IMG/VR virus record: IMGVR_UViG_3300042908_000769 | Location: 1-21,106 of that record | Reading direction: 5' to 3' (one strand) | DNA: 21,106 bases | Source: a virus | Shown here: one piece after another, positions 4,166-13,592 of the stretch | How positions within the stretch are numbered: the first letter of the stretch is position 1 | Layout of the letters: the number at the start of each line of letters is the position of its first letter | Notes under the pieces: model-generated | Seen by the model: the letters and a program-made list of their open reading frames with translations, nothing else | What the model was told of the DNA's origin: nothing | Database searches by the model: none | Program-made: the position numbers and the translations under genes

Positions 4166-5577
4166 AGATCGTCCTCCGCCCCTACCAGGCCTCGGCCGTC
4201 GCTGAACTCCGCGGCCGGTTCATGGCCGGTGATCGCCATGTCCTCTTCTGCCTCCCCACCGGTGGCGGGAAGACCGTGGTCTTCTCACACATCGCCGAGC
4301 AGGCCGCAGCCCGCGGCAACCGCGTTGCCATCCTTGTGCACCGTCAGGAGCTGGTCGACCAGTCCTGCCGCACCCTCCGCGAGATCGGCCTAGAGCACGG
4401 CGTGATCGCCGCCGGCTACCGCATGGACCTCTCCCGCGGCTGTCAGGTCGCGTCAGTTCAGACCCTCGCCCGCCGGCGCGCGCAGATCCCGCCCGACTTC
4501 TTCCAGCTGCTGATCATCGACGAGGCACACCACGCTGTCGCCGGCACCTGGGCCCGCCTGCTATCACACTTCGCCGACGCACGCACGCTCGGGGTGACGG
4601 CAACGCCGGAACGGCTCGACGGCAAGGGCCTCGGCGGTCACTTCGACAGCCTCATCCTTGGCCCCGATCCCGCATGGCTCACCGGTCAGGGCTTCCTCGT
4701 GCCGGCCCGGATCTTCGCCCCCCCAGGCCTCGACCTCAGCTCCATCAAGCGGTTCGACACCCGCAGGGGCCAGGCTGATGCCGAACAACGGCTGCAGCAG
4801 GGCCAGGCCATGGGCGATGCGGTCAGCCACTACCGGCGCACGATCGCCGATCAGCACAATGGGACCGCCATCGCGTTCTGTGTCTCCGTCGCCCATGCCG
4901 AAGCTGTCGCCGAAGCGTTCCGCTCCACTGGTATCCCCGCGGCCATGCTGGACGGCAACATGGACCGCGCTCAACGCCGCCGGCTGATCACTGACCTCGG
5001 CGCCGGTGTCCTGAAGGTGCTCACGTCCTGCGACATCATCAGCGAGGGCACCGACATTCCCTCAGTCACCGGTGCGATCCTGCTCCGGCCCACCGACTCC
5101 CTCGGCCTGTATCTGCAGCAGGTCGGCCGTGTGCTCCGCCCCGCTCCCGGCAAGACGACCGCAATCATCAACGACCACGTTGGCAACGTCCTCCGCCACG
5201 GCCTGCCGACCGATCCCCGTCAATGGTCCCTTGCCGGCCGCGTCAAGGCCACCAGGACAACCACCGCCAAGCCCATCACCGTCTGCCCGTCCTGCTTCGC
5301 CACCCTGCCTGCCGGCATCGCGCAGTGCCCCGAATGTGGCCATGTCTTCGCCACCGCAGGGCCCAGGGAGCTCCACACTGTCGCCGGCCACCTCCAGGAG
5401 CTCACCCCCGCACAGGTCGCCGCCGCACGGTTCCGACGCATCAACGAGGAACGCGACTGCCAATCCCTCGAAGACCTTGAAGAGCTCGGCCGCCGCCGCG
5501 GCTACAAACCCGGATGGGCCCGTTACCGCTGGTCAGCGCGAGAATCACGCCGCTTCGCCCGCGCTGGTGGCCGTTAG
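4162..5577 (+). CDS. SF2 DEAD/DEAH-box helicase with C-terminal zinc ribbon
   Basis: A 471-residue ATP-dependent nucleic-acid translocase of the type III restriction/UvrB-like (ResIII) group found in many phage replication modules. Visible motifs are RPYQ (residues 6-9), Walker A PTGGGKT (32-38), DEAH (120-123), TATP (146-149), a motif V-like TSCDIISEGTDIP (288-300), and motif VI QQVGRVLRP (319-327). A zinc ribbon follows with Cys375, Cys378, Cys389 and Cys392. ATG 4162 was chosen because it begins exactly where helicase homology begins and overlaps the preceding stop. The next gene is a VRR-NUC nuclease two bases downstream, a common helicase-nuclease pairing. It could unwind recombination intermediates or origins. 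Confidence 0.9.
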   Translation: MKIVLRPYQASAVAELRGRFMAGDRHVLFCLPTGGGKTVVFSHIAEQAAARGNRVAILVHRQELVDQSCRTLREIGLEHGVIAAGYRMDLSRGCQVASVQTLARRRAQIPPDFFQLLIIDEAHHAVAGTWARLLSHFADARTLGVTATPERLDGKGLGGHFDSLILGPDPAWLTGQGFLVPARIFAPPGLDLSSIKRFDTRRGQADAEQRLQQGQAMGDAVSHYRRTIADQHNGTAIAFCVSVAHAEAVAEAFRSTGIPAAMLDGNMDRAQRRRLITDLGAGVLKVLTSCDIISEGTDIPSVTGAILLRPTDSLGLYLQQVGRVLRPAPGKTTAIINDHVGNVLRHGLPTDPRQWSLAGRVKATRTTTAKPITVCPSCFATLPAGIAQCPECGHVFATAGPRELHTVAGHLQELTPAQVAAARFRRINEERDCQSLEDLEELGRRRGYKPGWARYRWSARESRRFARAGGR

Positions 5578-6453: not shown

Positions 6454-6641
6454 CCGACGAAATCCCCACATCCCAGGCCTATGAGGCCGGCAGGCAGTTC
6501 GAGCGGCATCAGCTGATCCAGCGCCTGCAGGTTCGCCTCTCAGAGCTCGACCGGATCATCGCCCTAGGTGGCTCCGAGGGCCGCTGCGCGCACATCGCCG
6601 GCGAGGTCCGGCGCATCATCGATCAGCTGCAGGGCCTCTGA
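6450..6641 (+). CDS. Small coiled-coil protein (63 aa)
   Basis: From ATG 6450, overlapping the previous stop. Almost entirely helical, with heptad-like spacing through FERHQLIQRLQVRLSELDRI and HIAGEVRRIIDQLQGL, so a short coiled coil or dimer is likely. It lies one base upstream of the primase-helicase start at 6643. It may be a small partner of that enzyme, but this is inference from position. Confidence 0.65.
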   Translation: MTDEIPTSQAYEAGRQFERHQLIQRLQVRLSELDRIIALGGSEGRCAHIAGEVRRIIDQLQGL

Positions 6642-6642
6642 C

Positions 6643-8847
6643 GTGTCCCTGATCGACCAGCTCCAGGCGCTGCCTGATGGCTGGGGCCTTGTCGCCGTTG
6701 ACGGCAGCAAGCGGCCCTATCAGCCCGACTGGCAGCACAACGCACTCACCAAGCAACAGATCGCTGCAGAGATCACCGCCGGCCGGGCCCGCGCCATCGG
6801 CGTGATCGCTGGCCCCACCTCCGGCGGTCTCCTGTTCGTTGACCACGACGGCTTGAGCGCCACCGGCAAGCTCGAAGAGCTCGGCCTGCCGCTCCGCGAT
6901 CTGCCCAAATCCCTCGCAATGACCAGCGGCAGGGACGGCCGGTTCCAGATCATCTACGGCGTGCCGCCCGACTATTGGCCCCACATGAAGGGCCGCCGCG
7001 TCTTCCGCACCGGTGCCACCGACGACACCGGCAAGGCCGAACAGCTCGAACTCAGATGGCACGGCCATCAATCGGTCGTCATCGGCGCCCACCCCCAGAC
7101 CTCCGGTTACCGGTGGCTGTCAGGTCGTGGCCCGGGTGAGCAGGCCCTGGCGGATGCACCCCTGGCACTGATTGAACTGCTGCTCAATGACCCCGAACCA
7201 CCGCCTACCCCGCCGGCGCCGCTCCTTGATCTGCTGCCGTCCGTCGATGCCGTCCCCTTCCTCGACTTCATCTCCCGCGACAGTCGCCAGCTGATCGAAT
7301 CCGGCGGCACGCCCGGCGCATGGAACGACGATCAGCTCCGTCTGTCGCTCGACCTCCTCGGGACTGAGGCATGGCTGACGCAGCAGGGCGCCCGCGTCGA
7401 CATGACCGCACGGGATGCCTTCGCACATCACATCGCCGCCGCACGCGGCAAGGCGCCCGACTTCGACGACCGCAAGGCCTGGGGCCGCTTCGATGGCGCC
7501 GCCAACCTCAACCCCACACCCTCGACGCCTCACGACAAGCTCGCCGATCGGCTGCGCTACCACCTCCGAAGAAAAGAGCCCGCAGGTGTCCCTAGACCCC
7601 CGGGCTCAGTCCCACTGCCTCACCAACCTACCCCGGCGCCGACAACACCAGCAGCAGGGCCAGCACCAGCCCCGCCGCCGGCGCACGGCCCGCCGATCCT
7701 CGCCAAGCCCCAGAAGCTCGAAGCCGCAGAAGTGCTCGCCCACCTCCGCCAGCTGTCAGCCGCAGGCGGCCTCCGTTGGAACATCTTCACCCAGCAGATC
7801 GAACTGCACGGCCGACCGATCGAGGGTGCAGATCGGTTCTACCTCATCCTCGCGGAACAGGGCTACAAGGTATCCAAGGAAGTCGCCTGCGATTGCCTGG
7901 TGCAAGTCGCCCGCGAAAACACCTATGACCCCGTCGCCGAATACCTTGATCACGTCGCCGCTACCGTCTCGCCGATCTGGATTGATCGCCTCGCATCCAT
8001 CTACCTCCGCCCACAGGATGCGCACCTGACGACGCCAACGATCTATGACCACATGATGAAATGCACCCTCATCGGTGCTGTTCGGCGTGCATTCGAGCCC
8101 GGTGCCAAGCACGACACCGCAACCATCCTGCAGGGCGATCAAGGCGCCCGCAAGTCTTCATTCTGGGCCGCACTCGCTGGCCCATTCTTCTCTGATGCAC
8201 TCGGCGATTGCACCACGAAAGATGACTTTATGATCCTTCACCGTTCGTGGATCATGGAGTGGTCCGAAATCGACCACATCACGAACCGGCGCCATGCCGG
8301 CCAGGTGAAGGCGTTCCTCAGTCAGTCCACCGACCTCTTCCGGCCGCCCTACGGCAAGGCCACCGAGGCCCATCCGCGCCGCGGGATCATCGTCGGCAGC
8401 ACCAACCGCCAGGGCTTCCTGGCCGATGAGACCGGCAACCGCCGGTTCTGGATCATCCCCACACCACGCTCCGAATCCGACCCGATCGATACCGGCAGCA
8501 TTGCCGCGGAACGGGACAGCATCTGGGCCGCTGCCGTCCTCGCCTATCGCGACGGCCAGGCCAACTACCTCCCGCCTGACCTCGCCGCCCAGGTCACCAA
8601 CGAGAACGAGGCGCATCAGACGGAGCACCCATGGGCGGCCCCCATCGCCGCCTGGCTGGCCCAGCAAGGGGCATGGGAGGCGATCTCCACCGAACGGGTG
8701 CTCACCGATGCCGTTCAGCGGCCACTCGAACGGCAGACCCGCGCTGATCAGATGGCGGTCGCCGACATCCTCCGATCCCTCGGCTGCGAACGCCGCCGCT
8801 GCATGTCACACGGCCACCGCGCCTGGAGGTGGCATCGGCCCGGCTGA
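6643..8847 (+). CDS. Prim-pol/VirE-type bifunctional replication primase-helicase
   Basis: A 734-residue replication protein starting at GTG 6643, the second base after the previous stop. The N-terminal third (about 1-185) resembles the bifunctional DNA primase/polymerase domain: WGLVAVDGSKRP, IGVIAGPTSGGLLFVDHDG with Asp67 and Asp69 as likely metal ligands. A Pro/Ala-rich linker runs about 312-356. The C-terminal part (about 430-610) is a virulence-associated-E type P-loop helicase: Walker A GDQGARKSS (498-506), an acidic strand WIMEWSEID (536-544), a sensor-like GSTNRQGFL and GNRRFWIIP with likely arginine finger. Walker A has Arg where the consensus has Gly. It would initiate and unwind at the phage origin, perhaps the non-coding stretch just downstream. 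Confidence 0.87.
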   Translation: MSLIDQLQALPDGWGLVAVDGSKRPYQPDWQHNALTKQQIAAEITAGRARAIGVIAGPTSGGLLFVDHDGLSATGKLEELGLPLRDLPKSLAMTSGRDGRFQIIYGVPPDYWPHMKGRRVFRTGATDDTGKAEQLELRWHGHQSVVIGAHPQTSGYRWLSGRGPGEQALADAPLALIELLLNDPEPPPTPPAPLLDLLPSVDAVPFLDFISRDSRQLIESGGTPGAWNDDQLRLSLDLLGTEAWLTQQGARVDMTARDAFAHHIAAARGKAPDFDDRKAWGRFDGAANLNPTPSTPHDKLADRLRYHLRRKEPAGVPRPPGSVPLPHQPTPAPTTPAAGPAPAPPPAHGPPILAKPQKLEAAEVLAHLRQLSAAGGLRWNIFTQQIELHGRPIEGADRFYLILAEQGYKVSKEVACDCLVQVARENTYDPVAEYLDHVAATVSPIWIDRLASIYLRPQDAHLTTPTIYDHMMKCTLIGAVRRAFEPGAKHDTATILQGDQGARKSSFWAALAGPFFSDALGDCTTKDDFMILHRSWIMEWSEIDHITNRRHAGQVKAFLSQSTDLFRPPYGKATEAHPRRGIIVGSTNRQGFLADETGNRRFWIIPTPRSESDPIDTGSIAAERDSIWAAAVLAYRDGQANYLPPDLAAQVTNENEAHQTEHPWAAPIAAWLAQQGAWEAISTERVLTDAVQRPLERQTRADQMAVADILRSLGCERRRCMSHGHRAWRWHRPG

Positions 8848-9107: not shown

Positions 9108-9170
9108 GAGATGGGGGCAGGAGGGGCAGCCTCCCGCCAGGCCTAGCCTTGGCGCATCAGCAGCCCGTTA

Positions 9171-9353
9171 ATGGAGCTCACCCTGTCGCAGCAGCTGGAC
9201 CTCGAACGCCTTCACCGATCCCTAGACCGCGCATCACCTGAGCAGCTGCTCGACATGGCCCACCGGCTCGCGGATGCATGGATGGCGCAGCAAGCCGCCG
9301 CACGCTGGGCGATCAAGCAGGGCCTACCAGGCTCCCGACTGCGGGGCCACTGA
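9171..9353 (+). CDS. NblA-like phycobilisome degradation protein
   Basis: A 60-residue helical protein. NblA binds phycobilisomes and delivers them to the Clp protease in starved cyanobacteria; some cyanophages carry it. From memory of Synechococcus elongatus NblA, residues 3-51 align without gaps. Shared anchors are L-x-L/V-x-QQ-x-DL at the start, Ser then Glu at the second-helix start (ASPEQLLD), Met-Ala in the middle (WMAQ), and I-K/R-Q-G at the end. Length and two-helix layout also fit. It starts at ATG 9171 with no Shine-Dalgarno. Its stop overlaps the next gene (TGATG), an unusual setting for a metabolic gene. It could instead be an unrelated small helical protein, as the match is recalled rather than searched. 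Confidence 0.55.
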   Translation: MELTLSQQLDLERLHRSLDRASPEQLLDMAHRLADAWMAQQAAARWAIKQGLPGSRLRGH

Positions 9354-10276
9354 TGAGCGACATCACCACCGACCCGATCGCTACAGCCGGCCGGTGGTTC
9401 ACCCAATCCGGCGACCGCCTCCACCTGGTCGGCTCCCACAGCTGGAACGGCGTTCAGTCGATCGGGGGCGCCACGCTCGACCCCGGCAGCCTCCACGGCA
9501 ACCTCACCGCTGCCTGGCTGTTCGAGGCCCCCACCTGGAACACCACCGGCAGCCGGTACGCACAGGGCCGCGGCCGGCCCCTCAACGTCGCCCCCATGCC
9601 CTGGCTGGCCCGTCAGGGCGCCTACGACCTATCACGCCCCCACAGGGGGCTCTACGGCCGCCTGCGGGCTTTCGTGGCCCGTCAGGCGGCACAGGGCCGC
9701 GCCACGGTCGTGATCGGCTTCGAGGGCACGCAGCCGGCCTATGGCGATTCGTGGGCGACCCATCCCCTCCGCCCCGGGAAGAACCACCAGGGCATCCACC
9801 TGGACCGACCGCAGCAGGTCCACGCTCCCGGCCACCACAACCGCTACCAGCGCCAACACCTCGCCCGCGTGATCCGCGCTATCGCCGGACTGCCCGCCCT
9901 GCTGCAGATCGGCAACGAGCTCCCGGCCTCCAGCTGGCCATGGCAGCGCCGCATGGTTGCATTCGCTGAACGCCTGACCGACATTCCCGTAGGCGTGAGC
10001 CACACGCCCAACACATCCGACCGCTGGATGCTGTCTTCCGGCGCCGATTGGTACGGCCCTGGCTGGCACACAGGCCCGATCGCTGGCGCCAGGGTGCCCC
10101 AGCTGCTCGACACCGATCACGGCATCGCACTGCGGGCACCCGACCTCGACACCATCACTGGCCTGCACCGTGCCGGGCATGCCATCCTGCTGATGGACGG
10201 TCTGAACGGTCGCGTGCTGCCCAACATCGACAACCTCGCCCCCGCCCGTGATCACATATCAGGGCTGATCCGATGA
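9353..10276 (+). CDS. Glycoside-hydrolase-like TIM barrel protein
   Basis: A 307-residue protein resembling a bacterial family of putative clan GH-A hydrolases. The first strand is LHLVGSHSWNG (residues 23-33). The acid/base pair of clan GH-A appears as QIGNELP (Asn188, Glu189). A later strand has LLDTDHGIA (Asp253-His256), and the barrel ends with HAILLMDGL. I recall the DTDH motif as usual for this family, so its Asp should not be read as a lost Glu. There is no signal peptide. ATG 9353 overlaps the previous stop and its own stop overlaps the next start (ATGA). It may degrade surface polysaccharide as a virion part or lysis factor. The substrate cannot be told. Confidence 0.65.
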   Translation: MSDITTDPIATAGRWFTQSGDRLHLVGSHSWNGVQSIGGATLDPGSLHGNLTAAWLFEAPTWNTTGSRYAQGRGRPLNVAPMPWLARQGAYDLSRPHRGLYGRLRAFVARQAAQGRATVVIGFEGTQPAYGDSWATHPLRPGKNHQGIHLDRPQQVHAPGHHNRYQRQHLARVIRAIAGLPALLQIGNELPASSWPWQRRMVAFAERLTDIPVGVSHTPNTSDRWMLSSGADWYGPGWHTGPIAGARVPQLLDTDHGIALRAPDLDTITGLHRAGHAILLMDGLNGRVLPNIDNLAPARDHISGLIR

Positions 10277-10932
10277 TCACCATCAAGGTGGACTCTCGCG
10301 GTGTGAATCGCGCTCAGGCATTCGTCGCCGCATACAAGAACCAACTACCCTTCGCCACATCCGTCGCGCTGAACCAGACCGCGCGTGATGTGCAGCTGGC
10401 GCTAAAGGCAGAAACCACCCGATCATTCACCGCTCCGGTGGCATTCACGAAATCAGCATTCCGCTACTCCAAGTCCACGAAGCTATCCCTGGTGGCTCAG
10501 GTCTACCCCTCCCCAGACCGTCCCTACTTCGACCCCCAAGTATTCGGCGGACAACGCCGATGGAAGGCCTACGAGGGTTTCATCCGTGGCCTGGCCGGTG
10601 GCAACCTCCCACCCGGCAAGTTGATCCCAACGAAGCTGGCGCAGAACGCCGCCGGCAATCCAAAGCGGTCGCTGTTCGGACAGATTGAATCCAACCTCTC
10701 CACCACCGATCAAGGCGGGTTCTTCATTGGCACACCACGGGGCGGCAACCGCGCGCCTGGTGTCTACCGCCGATCGCGTGGTCGCTTGTTCCCGTACTTC
10801 CTCGTAGTTCGCTCCGATCCGCGCTACAACCCTCGATTCCCCTTCGAGCGTGTCGGCAACGCGACCGCATCGCGCGTGTTCATCAGTCATCTTTCGCTCG
10901 CGCTGGATCGGGCGATGGCATCCGCGCGATGA
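10273..10932 (+). CDS. Minor-tail-Z-like phage morphogenesis protein
   Basis: A 219-residue protein of a phage family related to lambda gpZ-type tail completion proteins. The N-terminal pattern LPFATSVALNQTARDVQLAL (about residues 25-44), a FTKSAF segment, FGGQRRWKAYEGF, and the C-terminal part GTPRGG...APGVYRRSRGRLFPYF then NPRFPFERVG are characteristic as I remember them. It would cap the tail at the head-tail junction. Its ATG overlaps the hydrolase stop. Finding it upstream of terminase rather than among tail genes is unusual. A gap with hairpins follows. Confidence 0.55.
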   Translation: MITIKVDSRGVNRAQAFVAAYKNQLPFATSVALNQTARDVQLALKAETTRSFTAPVAFTKSAFRYSKSTKLSLVAQVYPSPDRPYFDPQVFGGQRRWKAYEGFIRGLAGGNLPPGKLIPTKLAQNAAGNPKRSLFGQIESNLSTTDQGGFFIGTPRGGNRAPGVYRRSRGRLFPYFLVVRSDPRYNPRFPFERVGNATASRVFISHLSLALDRAMASAR

Positions 10933-11116
10933 TCGACCCCCGATTCGCGGGTCCTTCCCCACCCACCCCGTAAGGGTAATCCTGCGGCTCGATATTTTTC
11001 TAGCGGGAGGGCGGAGACCCTCTAAAACCCAGTCATAGCAAGCACTTTGGGCCCCTCCCCCAAATCTTTTAAGGGGCCGGACTAAAATTTAAGTTAGTTC
11101 AGTGGCCTCTTAAGGA
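10933..11116 (+). other. 184-bp non-coding junction between early and packaging modules
   Basis: No gene is visible. It has a hairpin GAGGG (11007-11011) / CCCTC (11018-11022), a second GGCCCCT (11050-11056) / AGGGGCC (11072-11078), and an AT-rich block around 11081-11100. Neither hairpin has a clean U-tract. The block could hold a late promoter, but I find no good -35/-10 pair. It might also hold the packaging (cos or pac) site, which in lambda-like phages lies beside the small terminase gene. Confidence 0.4.
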
Positions 11117-11707
11117 TTGGCACTTGTTCGGAAGGGTGAGTTTGCGAAGGCGAAGGGCGTGACACCGGCGGCGGTGACGTTCGCGATTCGGTCTGGCCGG
11201 TTGAGCGGTGCGGTGGTGACTGAGAACGGGCGGGAGATGATCGACCTTGATCTTGGCCTGGAGCTGTGGGACCGGAACACCGCGCGGAACAACAACGCGA
11301 AGGTGGGTTCTGCTGATGGCCGCACCGCTGGCCCTGCTCAGCGGCGGCGGACACCACCTGTAGCGGTTGCGGCGCCGGCGGCGGCACCACCGATGGATCA
11401 GCTGCGGGCCTACATCGAGGCGCTGCCTGAGGATTCGATACCGGACCTGAACGAAAGCCGCGCGCGGCGTGAGCACTACCAGGCGGAGAAGGCGAAGCTA
11501 GAGGCACTGCAGGGCAGGGGCGAGCTGGTGCCGGTGGCTGAGGTGCGTGCGGAGGCGTTCAACCTGGCGCGATCGATCCGGGAGAGCATGATGGCGATAC
11601 CGGCGCGGTTGGCGCCGATGCTGGCTGGCACGGCTGATACCAGGCAGTGCCACCACCTGCTTGAGCAGGAGCTGAGAATTGCGCTGCGGGTGCTGAGCGA
11701 TGGCTGA
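11117..11707 (+). CDS. Terminase small subunit (Nu1-like)
   Basis: A 196-residue DNA-packaging protein that recognises the phage packaging site. The N-terminus (ALVRKGEFAKAKGVTPAAV, then AIRSGRLSG, near residues 2-31) is the winged helix-turn-helix of Nu1-like small terminases, followed by a Pro/Ala-rich linker and a C-terminal helical part (SRARREHYQAEKAKLEAL, ending in LLEQELRIALRVL) that should bind the large subunit. The start is TTG 11117, because the family usually begins MALVxK and no ATG or GTG fits upstream. Translation start is thus uncertain. It overlaps the large subunit by eight bases. Confidence 0.8.
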   Translation: MALVRKGEFAKAKGVTPAAVTFAIRSGRLSGAVVTENGREMIDLDLGLELWDRNTARNNNAKVGSADGRTAGPAQRRRTPPVAVAAPAAAPPMDQLRAYIEALPEDSIPDLNESRARREHYQAEKAKLEALQGRGELVPVAEVRAEAFNLARSIRESMMAIPARLAPMLAGTADTRQCHHLLEQELRIALRVLSDG

Positions 11708-13592
11708 TCCGGCGCTGGTGTATCGGGAGGCATGGCGCGAGGGCCTGCGGCCGGCGGACCCGATGGGCGTTGATGAATGGGCGGATCGTTACCGGATGCT
11801 GAGCAGCAAGGGCAGCAGCGAGCCGGGCCCGTGGCGGACGGATCGGACGCCGTACCTGCGCGAGCCAATGCAGTGCCTGAGCCCGAGCAGCCCATGGCGG
11901 CGGGTGGTGCTCATGTTCGGCTCGCAGCTGGGCAAGACCGAGGTAGTGCTCAACTGGCTGGGGGCGATCATCCATCTATGGCCGGCGCCGACGCTGCTGG
12001 TGCAGCCGACTCTCGACATGGCGAAGCGGCTGAACCGCCAGCGGCTGGATCCGCTGCTGAAGGAAACCCCGGTACTGAGCGAGCTGATCGCACCGGCGCG
12101 GTCGCGGGACTCGGGCAACACGATGTTTCTCAAGGAGTTCCGCGGGGGGCTGTTCGTGCTCACCGGTGCGAACAGCGGGAGCGGCCTGCAGTCCATGCCG
12201 GCGGCCTATTTGGCAGCGGATGAGGTGAGCAGTTACCCGCTCGAGGCGGATGACAAGGGCGACCCGCTGGAGAATGCCGAGGCCAGGACGTCCACGTTCC
12301 CGATGGGCAAGGTGCTGATCACCAGCACGCCCGGCACGCGGGGCATGTGCCGCATCACTGCGGAGTTCGAGACCAGAAGCGACCGGCGACAGCTGGCGAT
12401 GCTGATGCCGTGCTGCGGATCGCTGGAGGTGCTGCGGTGGCGTGAGCACATGCGATGGGATCGGCCGGATGGTGAGGTGTGGTGCCAGTGTCCGGCGTGC
12501 GGCGAACGTGTGGGGCAGCGGCACAAGACATCGATGTTGGCGGGTGCGGTGTGGGGTGCAACGGCGCCGGGCGATGGGATGACGGCGGGATTCCATCTGC
12601 CGGGGTGGTATGCGCCGGCGGGGTGGAAGAGCTGGGAGGAGATCCGGGATGAGTTCCTGCGGGCGAAGAGCGACCCGCTGCTGCTCAAGGGCTGGGTCAA
12701 CAAGCGGGCAGCGGAAGCCTGGGAGGATGAAGCGGTGGCGGCGATCAACGCTGATGGCCTGATGGGCCGGGCCGCGGCCGACCCGTACCCGACTGGCCAG
12801 TGCCCTGATGGTGTGCTGGTGCTGCTGATGGCGGTGGATGTGCAGGACACCTGGCTAGAGGTGAGCGTGTGGGGCATCGGCCGGGGGGAAGAGATGTGGC
12901 TGGTGTGGCATCAGAAGGTTGAGGGCAGCCCGGCGGATGGCGAGGTGTGGGAGCAGGCGGATTCGATCCGCCGGACGGAATGGCCCCGGGCTGGGGGTGG
13001 GGTGATGACGGTGCGTCATTGCGGGGTGGACACGGGCGGCCACTTCACGCAGGAGGCCTACGAGTTCTGCCGGCAGCGGGTGCGTGAGGGCGTGGTCGCA
13101 TTGAAGGGCAGCAGCACAAAGGCGGCGCCGGCGTTGAGCAAGGGCAGCAAGGTGGATGTGAACTGGCGCGGCCGGGTGATCAAGGGCGGCGTCGTGCTGT
13201 ACATGGTGGGCGGCGACACATTGAAGCGGACGATCTACGCGAGGCTGCGGAAGGAGGGCACAGGCCCCGGCGCCGTGCACTTCGGGCAGAACGCAACCGA
13301 GGATTACCTCCAGGGCCTGACGTGTGAGCGGCTGGTGCCGAAGACGGTGAAGGGATTCCAGGTGCTGTCGTGGCAGAAACCGGCGGGTGCGCGAAATGAA
13401 CCGCTCGACCTGGTGGTCTACTGCCTGGCGGTGCTGGAGCTGGTGAAGCGGCGCTACAACCGGGCGACGATGTGGGATCAGCTGGCGGCAGCAGTTGCGA
13501 CTGAGAAGGCACCACCGGCCGCGGCTGGTGGTGGTGGCGCACGGCGGCGGCGGCCGGCGAGGACCGGGCCGAGTTTCGTCTCCGGCTGGTAG
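11700..13592 (+). CDS. Terminase large subunit (gpA family)
   Basis: A 630-residue ATPase-nuclease that translocates DNA into the prohead and cuts it. The ATPase shows gpA-type Walker A GSQLGKTE (74-81), Walker B LAADEV (171-176) with DEVSSYP, and the coupling strand KVLITSTPG (about 204-212). A possible zinc site has CC at 238-239, then CxCxxC at 262-267. The nuclease half contains likely metal residues Asp380 (LMAVDVQ) and Asp444 (GVDTGGH). Length and order match the lambda gpA class. The start ATG 11700 overlaps the small subunit gene. Codons are mostly G-ending, unlike the early genes. Confidence 0.93.
   Translation: MADPALVYREAWREGLRPADPMGVDEWADRYRMLSSKGSSEPGPWRTDRTPYLREPMQCLSPSSPWRRVVLMFGSQLGKTEVVLNWLGAIIHLWPAPTLLVQPTLDMAKRLNRQRLDPLLKETPVLSELIAPARSRDSGNTMFLKEFRGGLFVLTGANSGSGLQSMPAAYLAADEVSSYPLEADDKGDPLENAEARTSTFPMGKVLITSTPGTRGMCRITAEFETRSDRRQLAMLMPCCGSLEVLRWREHMRWDRPDGEVWCQCPACGERVGQRHKTSMLAGAVWGATAPGDGMTAGFHLPGWYAPAGWKSWEEIRDEFLRAKSDPLLLKGWVNKRAAEAWEDEAVAAINADGLMGRAAADPYPTGQCPDGVLVLLMAVDVQDTWLEVSVWGIGRGEEMWLVWHQKVEGSPADGEVWEQADSIRRTEWPRAGGGVMTVRHCGVDTGGHFTQEAYEFCRQRVREGVVALKGSSTKAAPALSKGSKVDVNWRGRVIKGGVVLYMVGGDTLKRTIYARLRKEGTGPGAVHFGQNATEDYLQGLTCERLVPKTVKGFQVLSWQKPAGARNEPLDLVVYCLAVLELVKRRYNRATMWDQLAAAVATEKAPPAAAGGGGARRRRPARTGPSFVSGW

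Follow-up and report, generated by a model that had tools for sequence, protein, structure and literature searches.

The window, that is the whole 21,106-nucleotide stretch of viral DNA analysed here, carries on its plus strand a short open reading frame (Table 1) whose 60-amino acid product is MELTLSQQLDLERLHRSLDRASPEQLLDMAHRLADAWMAQQAAARWAIKQGLPGSRLRGH. Two further IMG/VR contigs (L001 and L002) hold the same gene at 98% protein identity. Between the window and these contigs 14 codons of the gene differ, 13 of them silently and one with replacement of the amino acid, the reading frame is kept, and 12 of the 13 silent changes fall in the third codon position. Because 13 of the 14 codon changes are silent, 9171-9353 is a translated protein gene under purifying selection. 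The possibility that the frame is spurious and has no product was rejected, since its shortness and the lack of a clear ribosome-binding site are outweighed by the codon pattern, which in practice refutes it, and by the homologues that hosts and other phages possess. Inspection of the surroundings revealed no consensus promoter, and a terminator-like site 3' of the minor tail gene (11046-11064) is about equally frequent in shuffled sequence. In L001 and L002 approximately 340 bases lie upstream of the gene (4660-5000 in both contigs), where the window has approximately 40 (9131-9169) instead; the longer stretch holds an open reading frame, and the end of this frame resembles the C-terminus of the VapE primase.

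Table 1. Features of the NblA-like gene and its surroundings (positions in the window)
Feature	Position	Strand	Basis or remark
Prim-Pol/VapE-like primase-helicase, upstream neighbour	6568..8847	+	
NblA-like gene, 60 aa	9171..9353	+	ORF, PF04485, silent-change pattern, host family, AlphaFold2 model
ELTLSQQLDL, residues 2-11; counterpart of NblA N-terminal motif ELSLEQQFxL	9174..9203	+	alignment
Predicted helix 1, residues 5-20	9183..9230	+	AlphaFold2 model
Predicted helix 2, residues 23-49	9237..9317	+	AlphaFold2 model
AIKQG, residues 47-51; where S. elongatus NblA has MIRQG	9309..9323	+	alignment
307-aa protein, no known family	9353..10276	+	starts on last base of NblA-like stop codon
Minor tail protein (phrog_1924)	10273..10932	+	PHROGs match; S-CBS3 homologue
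Terminase small subunit (phrog_57)	11117..11707	+	PHROGs match
Terminase large subunit, lambda GpA type	11700..13592	+	85% to Synechococcus phage S-CBS3

The gene is located between the VapE/Prim-Pol primase gene and the genes for the minor tail protein and the two terminase subunits (TerS and TerL), with the portal and capsid genes coming after TerL; the first-pass annotation, which had placed it on the packaging side, was fair in this respect. The gene shares one base with the next gene (TGATG at 9351-9355), provided that the latter starts at 9353; an alternative in-frame ATG upstream, at 9278, would lengthen it. Four nucleotides (ATGA at 10273) are in turn common to the 307-aa gene and the minor tail gene. 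Because of the one-base and four-base overlaps, the three genes are probably translated together. An overlap with a hydrolase gene had also been proposed: the overlap stands, as one base if the start is 9353, and the hydrolase label was rejected because the product of 9353-10276 had no match in Pfam, PHROGs or NCBIfam and no convincing match in the PDB. This 307-aa protein is conserved in the two near relatives only (91% in L001 and L002).

The TerL of the window is 85% identical to that of S-CBS3, 83.5% identical to that of S-CBS1, and less than 60% identical to those of all other annotated phages. Judged by this comparison, the window comes from a siphovirus of lambda type with S-CBS1 and S-CBS3, two Synechococcus phages, as close relatives, and the closeness to S-CBS3, whose host is Synechococcus CB0202, suggests that the host may be a picocyanobacterium. 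Unlike the window, S-CBS1 and S-CBS3 contain no NblA-like gene, and a PF04485 search of 49 related siphovirus records, many of which are fragments, gave no match. In S-CBS3 the minor tail gene comes directly after the helicase gene; to judge by this gene order, an insertion at the helicase/minor tail junction would have brought in both the NblA-like gene and the 307-aa gene next to it.

The sole Pfam match of the 60-aa protein was the NblA family PF04485 (E 7.9e-5, model positions 1-49 of 50). The score of 23.5 bits is below the curated gathering cut-off of 25 bits, and the protein was filed as NblA-like. The first-pass annotation had related it to NblA by its length and by an ungapped alignment over 49 residues with 14 identities. 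The length agrees (60 aa compared to about 60 aa), and the alignment was reproduced with S. elongatus NblA (PDB 3cs5). Fourteen identities were also reached ungapped with several other NblA proteins; this number was equalled by one of 2000 shuffles. The HMM search suggested there thus gave a match of nearly full length at a sub-threshold score. With an NblA-only profile, built from 34 classical NblA sequences, the phage protein scored 14.1 bits, compared to a maximum of 9.0 among 20,000 shuffles. Neither PHROGs nor NCBIfam contained a match for the 60-aa protein, a tblastn search of annotated phages yielded nothing, and a sequence search of the PDB did not return NblA.

The AlphaFold2 monomer model (mean pLDDT 87.6) is a two-helix hairpin, the fold predicted if the protein belongs with NblA. 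A classical NblA folded as control had helices at 11-25 and 29-56, a layout that is the same as in the phage model with an offset of six residues. Searches of the PDB by Foldseek and VIA gave no match; this outcome carries no weight either way, because Foldseek left the classical NblA control equally unmatched. The conserved N-terminal motif of NblA is present: ELTLSQQL has five of eight residues identical to ELSLEQQF, the others being S/T, E/S and F/L changes. The segment AIKQG aligns to MIRQG of S. elongatus and not to the commoner LKHQWG (NblA C-terminal motif LKHxWG); it falls within the C-terminal portion by which NblA reportedly touches phycobiliproteins (PMC4103541).

To our knowledge, picocyanobacteria are often said to be without nblA, and PF04485 was nearly silent in them, matching five of 151 genomes. 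Three of these five weak matches were a 65-aa protein resembling the phage protein, and as a family member it opened the way to the wider family. When the 65-aa protein was used as query, matches were obtained in 94 of the 151 genomes. The phage protein itself matched in 195 of 400 picocyanobacterial genomes, with full-length similarity, identities up to 52% and E values down to 1.6e-11, the latter in one genome. (The genomes were read as picocyanobacterial, Cyanobiaceae-like, from genome traits including their phycocyanin and phycoerythrin content.) The host proteins are 57-90 aa long, a genome often has two, three or four of them, and a typical member begins MSEPLALSLGQQFELERMNRAIEATADLQALQGIAKQLLQAWHSQKAATQWVMRQQL. 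A member was present in 154 of 172 genomes with CpcB (90%) and in 41 of 228 without (18%), an odds ratio of 39 that is uncorrected for kinship, and some of the 41 member-bearing genomes lacking a CpcB match may be incomplete. The gene context at five host loci provided no clear functional hint.

The picocyanobacterial genomes L135-L140 and L141-L197 carry as many as four NblA-like paralogues each; these are unnamed by Pfam and NCBIfam, and a common one begins MSEPLALSLGQ. Two other picocyanobacterial proteins of 102 and 95 aa (L133, L134), which match PF04485 at 23-27 bits, fall outside the NblA-like family; their long branches lie close to those of classical NblA and podovirus NblA. A 'divergent nblA-like gene' of WH8102 is noted in a passage of PMC7439483 citing Nadel et al. 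2019; going by that description, the host family is probably the same.

A tree set classical NblA apart from the picocyanobacterial/phage family with full support, and the protein of the window fell in the latter. There its group included L169 and L173 from hosts as well as the protein of phage PSS2, although with 67 usable columns and many long branches its exact placement is unsure. A classical NblA acquired from a host outside the picocyanobacteria and diverged since could explain why the loop between the helices is of classical length, whereas that of the host family has one residue more. Such a transfer is very improbable and was rejected on the tree placement; moreover, the phage protein is 35-45% identical to most aligned host members (52% at best) and approximately 25% identical to NblA, and the relatives of the phage infect picocyanobacteria. 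By these sequence comparisons the nearest kin of the gene is the picocyanobacterial NblA-like family, not classical NblA.

The family profile also matched annotated phages, namely S-SCSM1 ORF237 (annotated as nblA), a small gene of S-TIM5, and PSS2_gp049. An nblA in S-TIM5 was predicted by Nadel et al. 2019, as reported in PMC9602691, and we infer that the small gene found here is the same. PSS2_gp049 (L198:2983-3210) is the member in a Prochlorococcus siphovirus with the recorded host MIT9313. Scanning of viral sequences with the family profile yielded 30 further IMG/VR contigs. Phage neighbours were confirmed for the members in L211 (beside TerL and portal genes), L233 (portal), L239 (a VapE primase nearby), L222 (a tape measure gene nearby) and L210 (primase, dCMP deaminase, sigma factor, RNR); the viral origin of the remaining contigs rests on IMG/VR. 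The members in L210-L239 sit in clearly different phage types. In L210 the gene lies between dCMP deaminase and the sigma factor, a layout shared by L213 and L216. The unnamed phrog_27081 was touched by 13 of 21 viral members. Compared in this way, the gene of the window is a phage-borne member of a divergent picocyanobacterial NblA-like family that has phage members of its own.

Whether this family is homologous to NblA was addressed by profiles. When 15,696 viral open frames were ranked with the NblA-only profile, all of the top 30 places were taken by members of the family, with many loci sharing one contig, so that the independent members number fewer than 30. Because of this ranking, distant homology to NblA is very likely. 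A profile of the host family alone aligned with classical NblA over 64 columns with a probability of 94.6%, a value that neither the reversed profile nor any of 150 column permutations approached; with the phage protein included the probability was 92.7%. The viral members without the window protein aligned weakly (33%, 15 columns). The alternative, that an unrelated picocyanobacterial family of helical hairpins with another function came to resemble NblA by convergence, could draw on the sub-threshold Pfam score, on PF04485 being matched at E 1 or better by 3 of 21 viral members only, and on the PDB, where neither the 60-aa protein nor the family profile found NblA among the sequences. It is improbable, given the first ranks in the NblA-only search, the permutation and reversal controls, and a phage protein that outscores all 20,000 shuffles. 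The original identification therefore holds as distant NblA homology, supported by PF04485, the profiles and the predicted hairpin, and not as a classical NblA copy.

NblA has been reported to bind ClpC via its N-terminal motif and phycobiliproteins via the C-terminal one (PMC4103541), and to form four-helix dimers (PMC7966870). The two-helix hairpin of NblA is the most likely fold of the phage protein, and two such hairpins would pair as a four-helix bundle. During infection of a Synechococcus- or Cyanobium-type host the protein would serve as a Clp adaptor that contacts ClpC by the N-terminal motif and phycobiliproteins by the C-terminal helix. Phycobilisomes would then be loosened and degraded, amino acids freed and light capture lowered, presumably to the benefit of the phage. 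We give a probability of about 0.6 to the reading that the divergent NblA-like family has here a phage-borne member, which acts as a Clp adaptor and promotes phycobilisome breakdown. This role appears the most likely because the N-terminal motif is kept, because the host family co-occurs with CpcB, and because test hosts that express NblA of other phages lose pigment (PMC9602691). Counted against it were the sub-cut-off Pfam score, the failure of the family profile to find NblA in the PDB, the weak NblA alignment of the other viral members, the 41 member-bearing genomes without a CpcB match, and the member in PSS2. MIT9313, the host of PSS2, is a Prochlorococcus of the group without ordinary phycobilisomes.

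A protein of the same family could also have a different or even opposite role, pairing with the host's NblA-like proteins to block or retune them, or bringing another substrate to Clp. In that case the antenna would be kept, or another host protein removed. With up to four paralogues in a host a division of roles may have come about, the distance between the family and classical NblA is large, and some genomes without a CpcB match have members. We consider such a role rather unlikely, since the host family tracks phycocyanin and the tested phage NblA, although of other branches, cause pigment loss (PMC9602691).

If the adaptor reading is extended to the whole family, picocyanobacteria mostly carry one or more members of an NblA-like family that is missed by Pfam and tracks phycocyanin, and many unrelated cyanophage lineages each took a copy, placing it next to terminase, primase or nucleotide-metabolism genes, in order to drive antenna proteolysis while infecting. 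This scenario is tentative, at somewhat less than even odds. Should it hold, phycobilisome turnover in Synechococcus of marine and freshwater habitats, as well as its hijacking by phages, would be explained by a single adaptor family that had been overlooked. Tracing one phage gene exposed a family that approximately 90% of the picocyanobacterial genomes with phycocyanin share with 30 further viral contigs and of which nearly all members are missed by Pfam and unnamed in PHROGs, and how picocyanobacteria dismantle phycobilisomes is now directly testable.

Discussion of phage NblA usually centres on phages of freshwater blooms and on some marine isolates. Phage nblA has been published (PMC9602691, where the legend of Fig. 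5 lists a cyanosiphovirus class), and according to the passage of PMC7439483 that cites Nadel et al. 2019, so have divergent nblA-like genes of picocyanobacteria and of the phages that infect them. The window adds an NblA-like member in the S-CBS1/3-type siphovirus lineage, whose isolates S-CBS1 and S-CBS3 are without the gene, and it may be a new finding that the family is so widespread among hosts and phages.

Among the known systems, classical NblA (S. elongatus 3CS5, Anabaena 1OJH) resembles the window protein in its length of about 60 aa, helical hairpin, N-terminal motif and ungapped alignment, but the window protein lies outside the classical clade. The cyanopodovirus NblA (S-RIP2 type) is likewise phage-borne with a weak PF04485 score (25.1 bits), but belongs to another branch and is not found by the family profile; the S-RIP2 open reading frame (L202:1501-1668) is unannotated in its GenBank record. 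The NblA of S-SCSM1 and, by inference, S-TIM5 are phage-borne and recognized by the same family profile as the gene of the window; unlike the latter they are 54 aa long, much diverged, without a PF04485 match, and carried by T4-like marine myoviruses. The picocyanobacterial family agrees with the window protein in length and hairpin layout, is up to 52% identical to it, and shares with it the motif L-x-x-Q-x-F/L-x-L/I-E-R...D...L...A...AW..Q.AA, whereas many of its members have longer C-terminal tails, which the phage protein does not.
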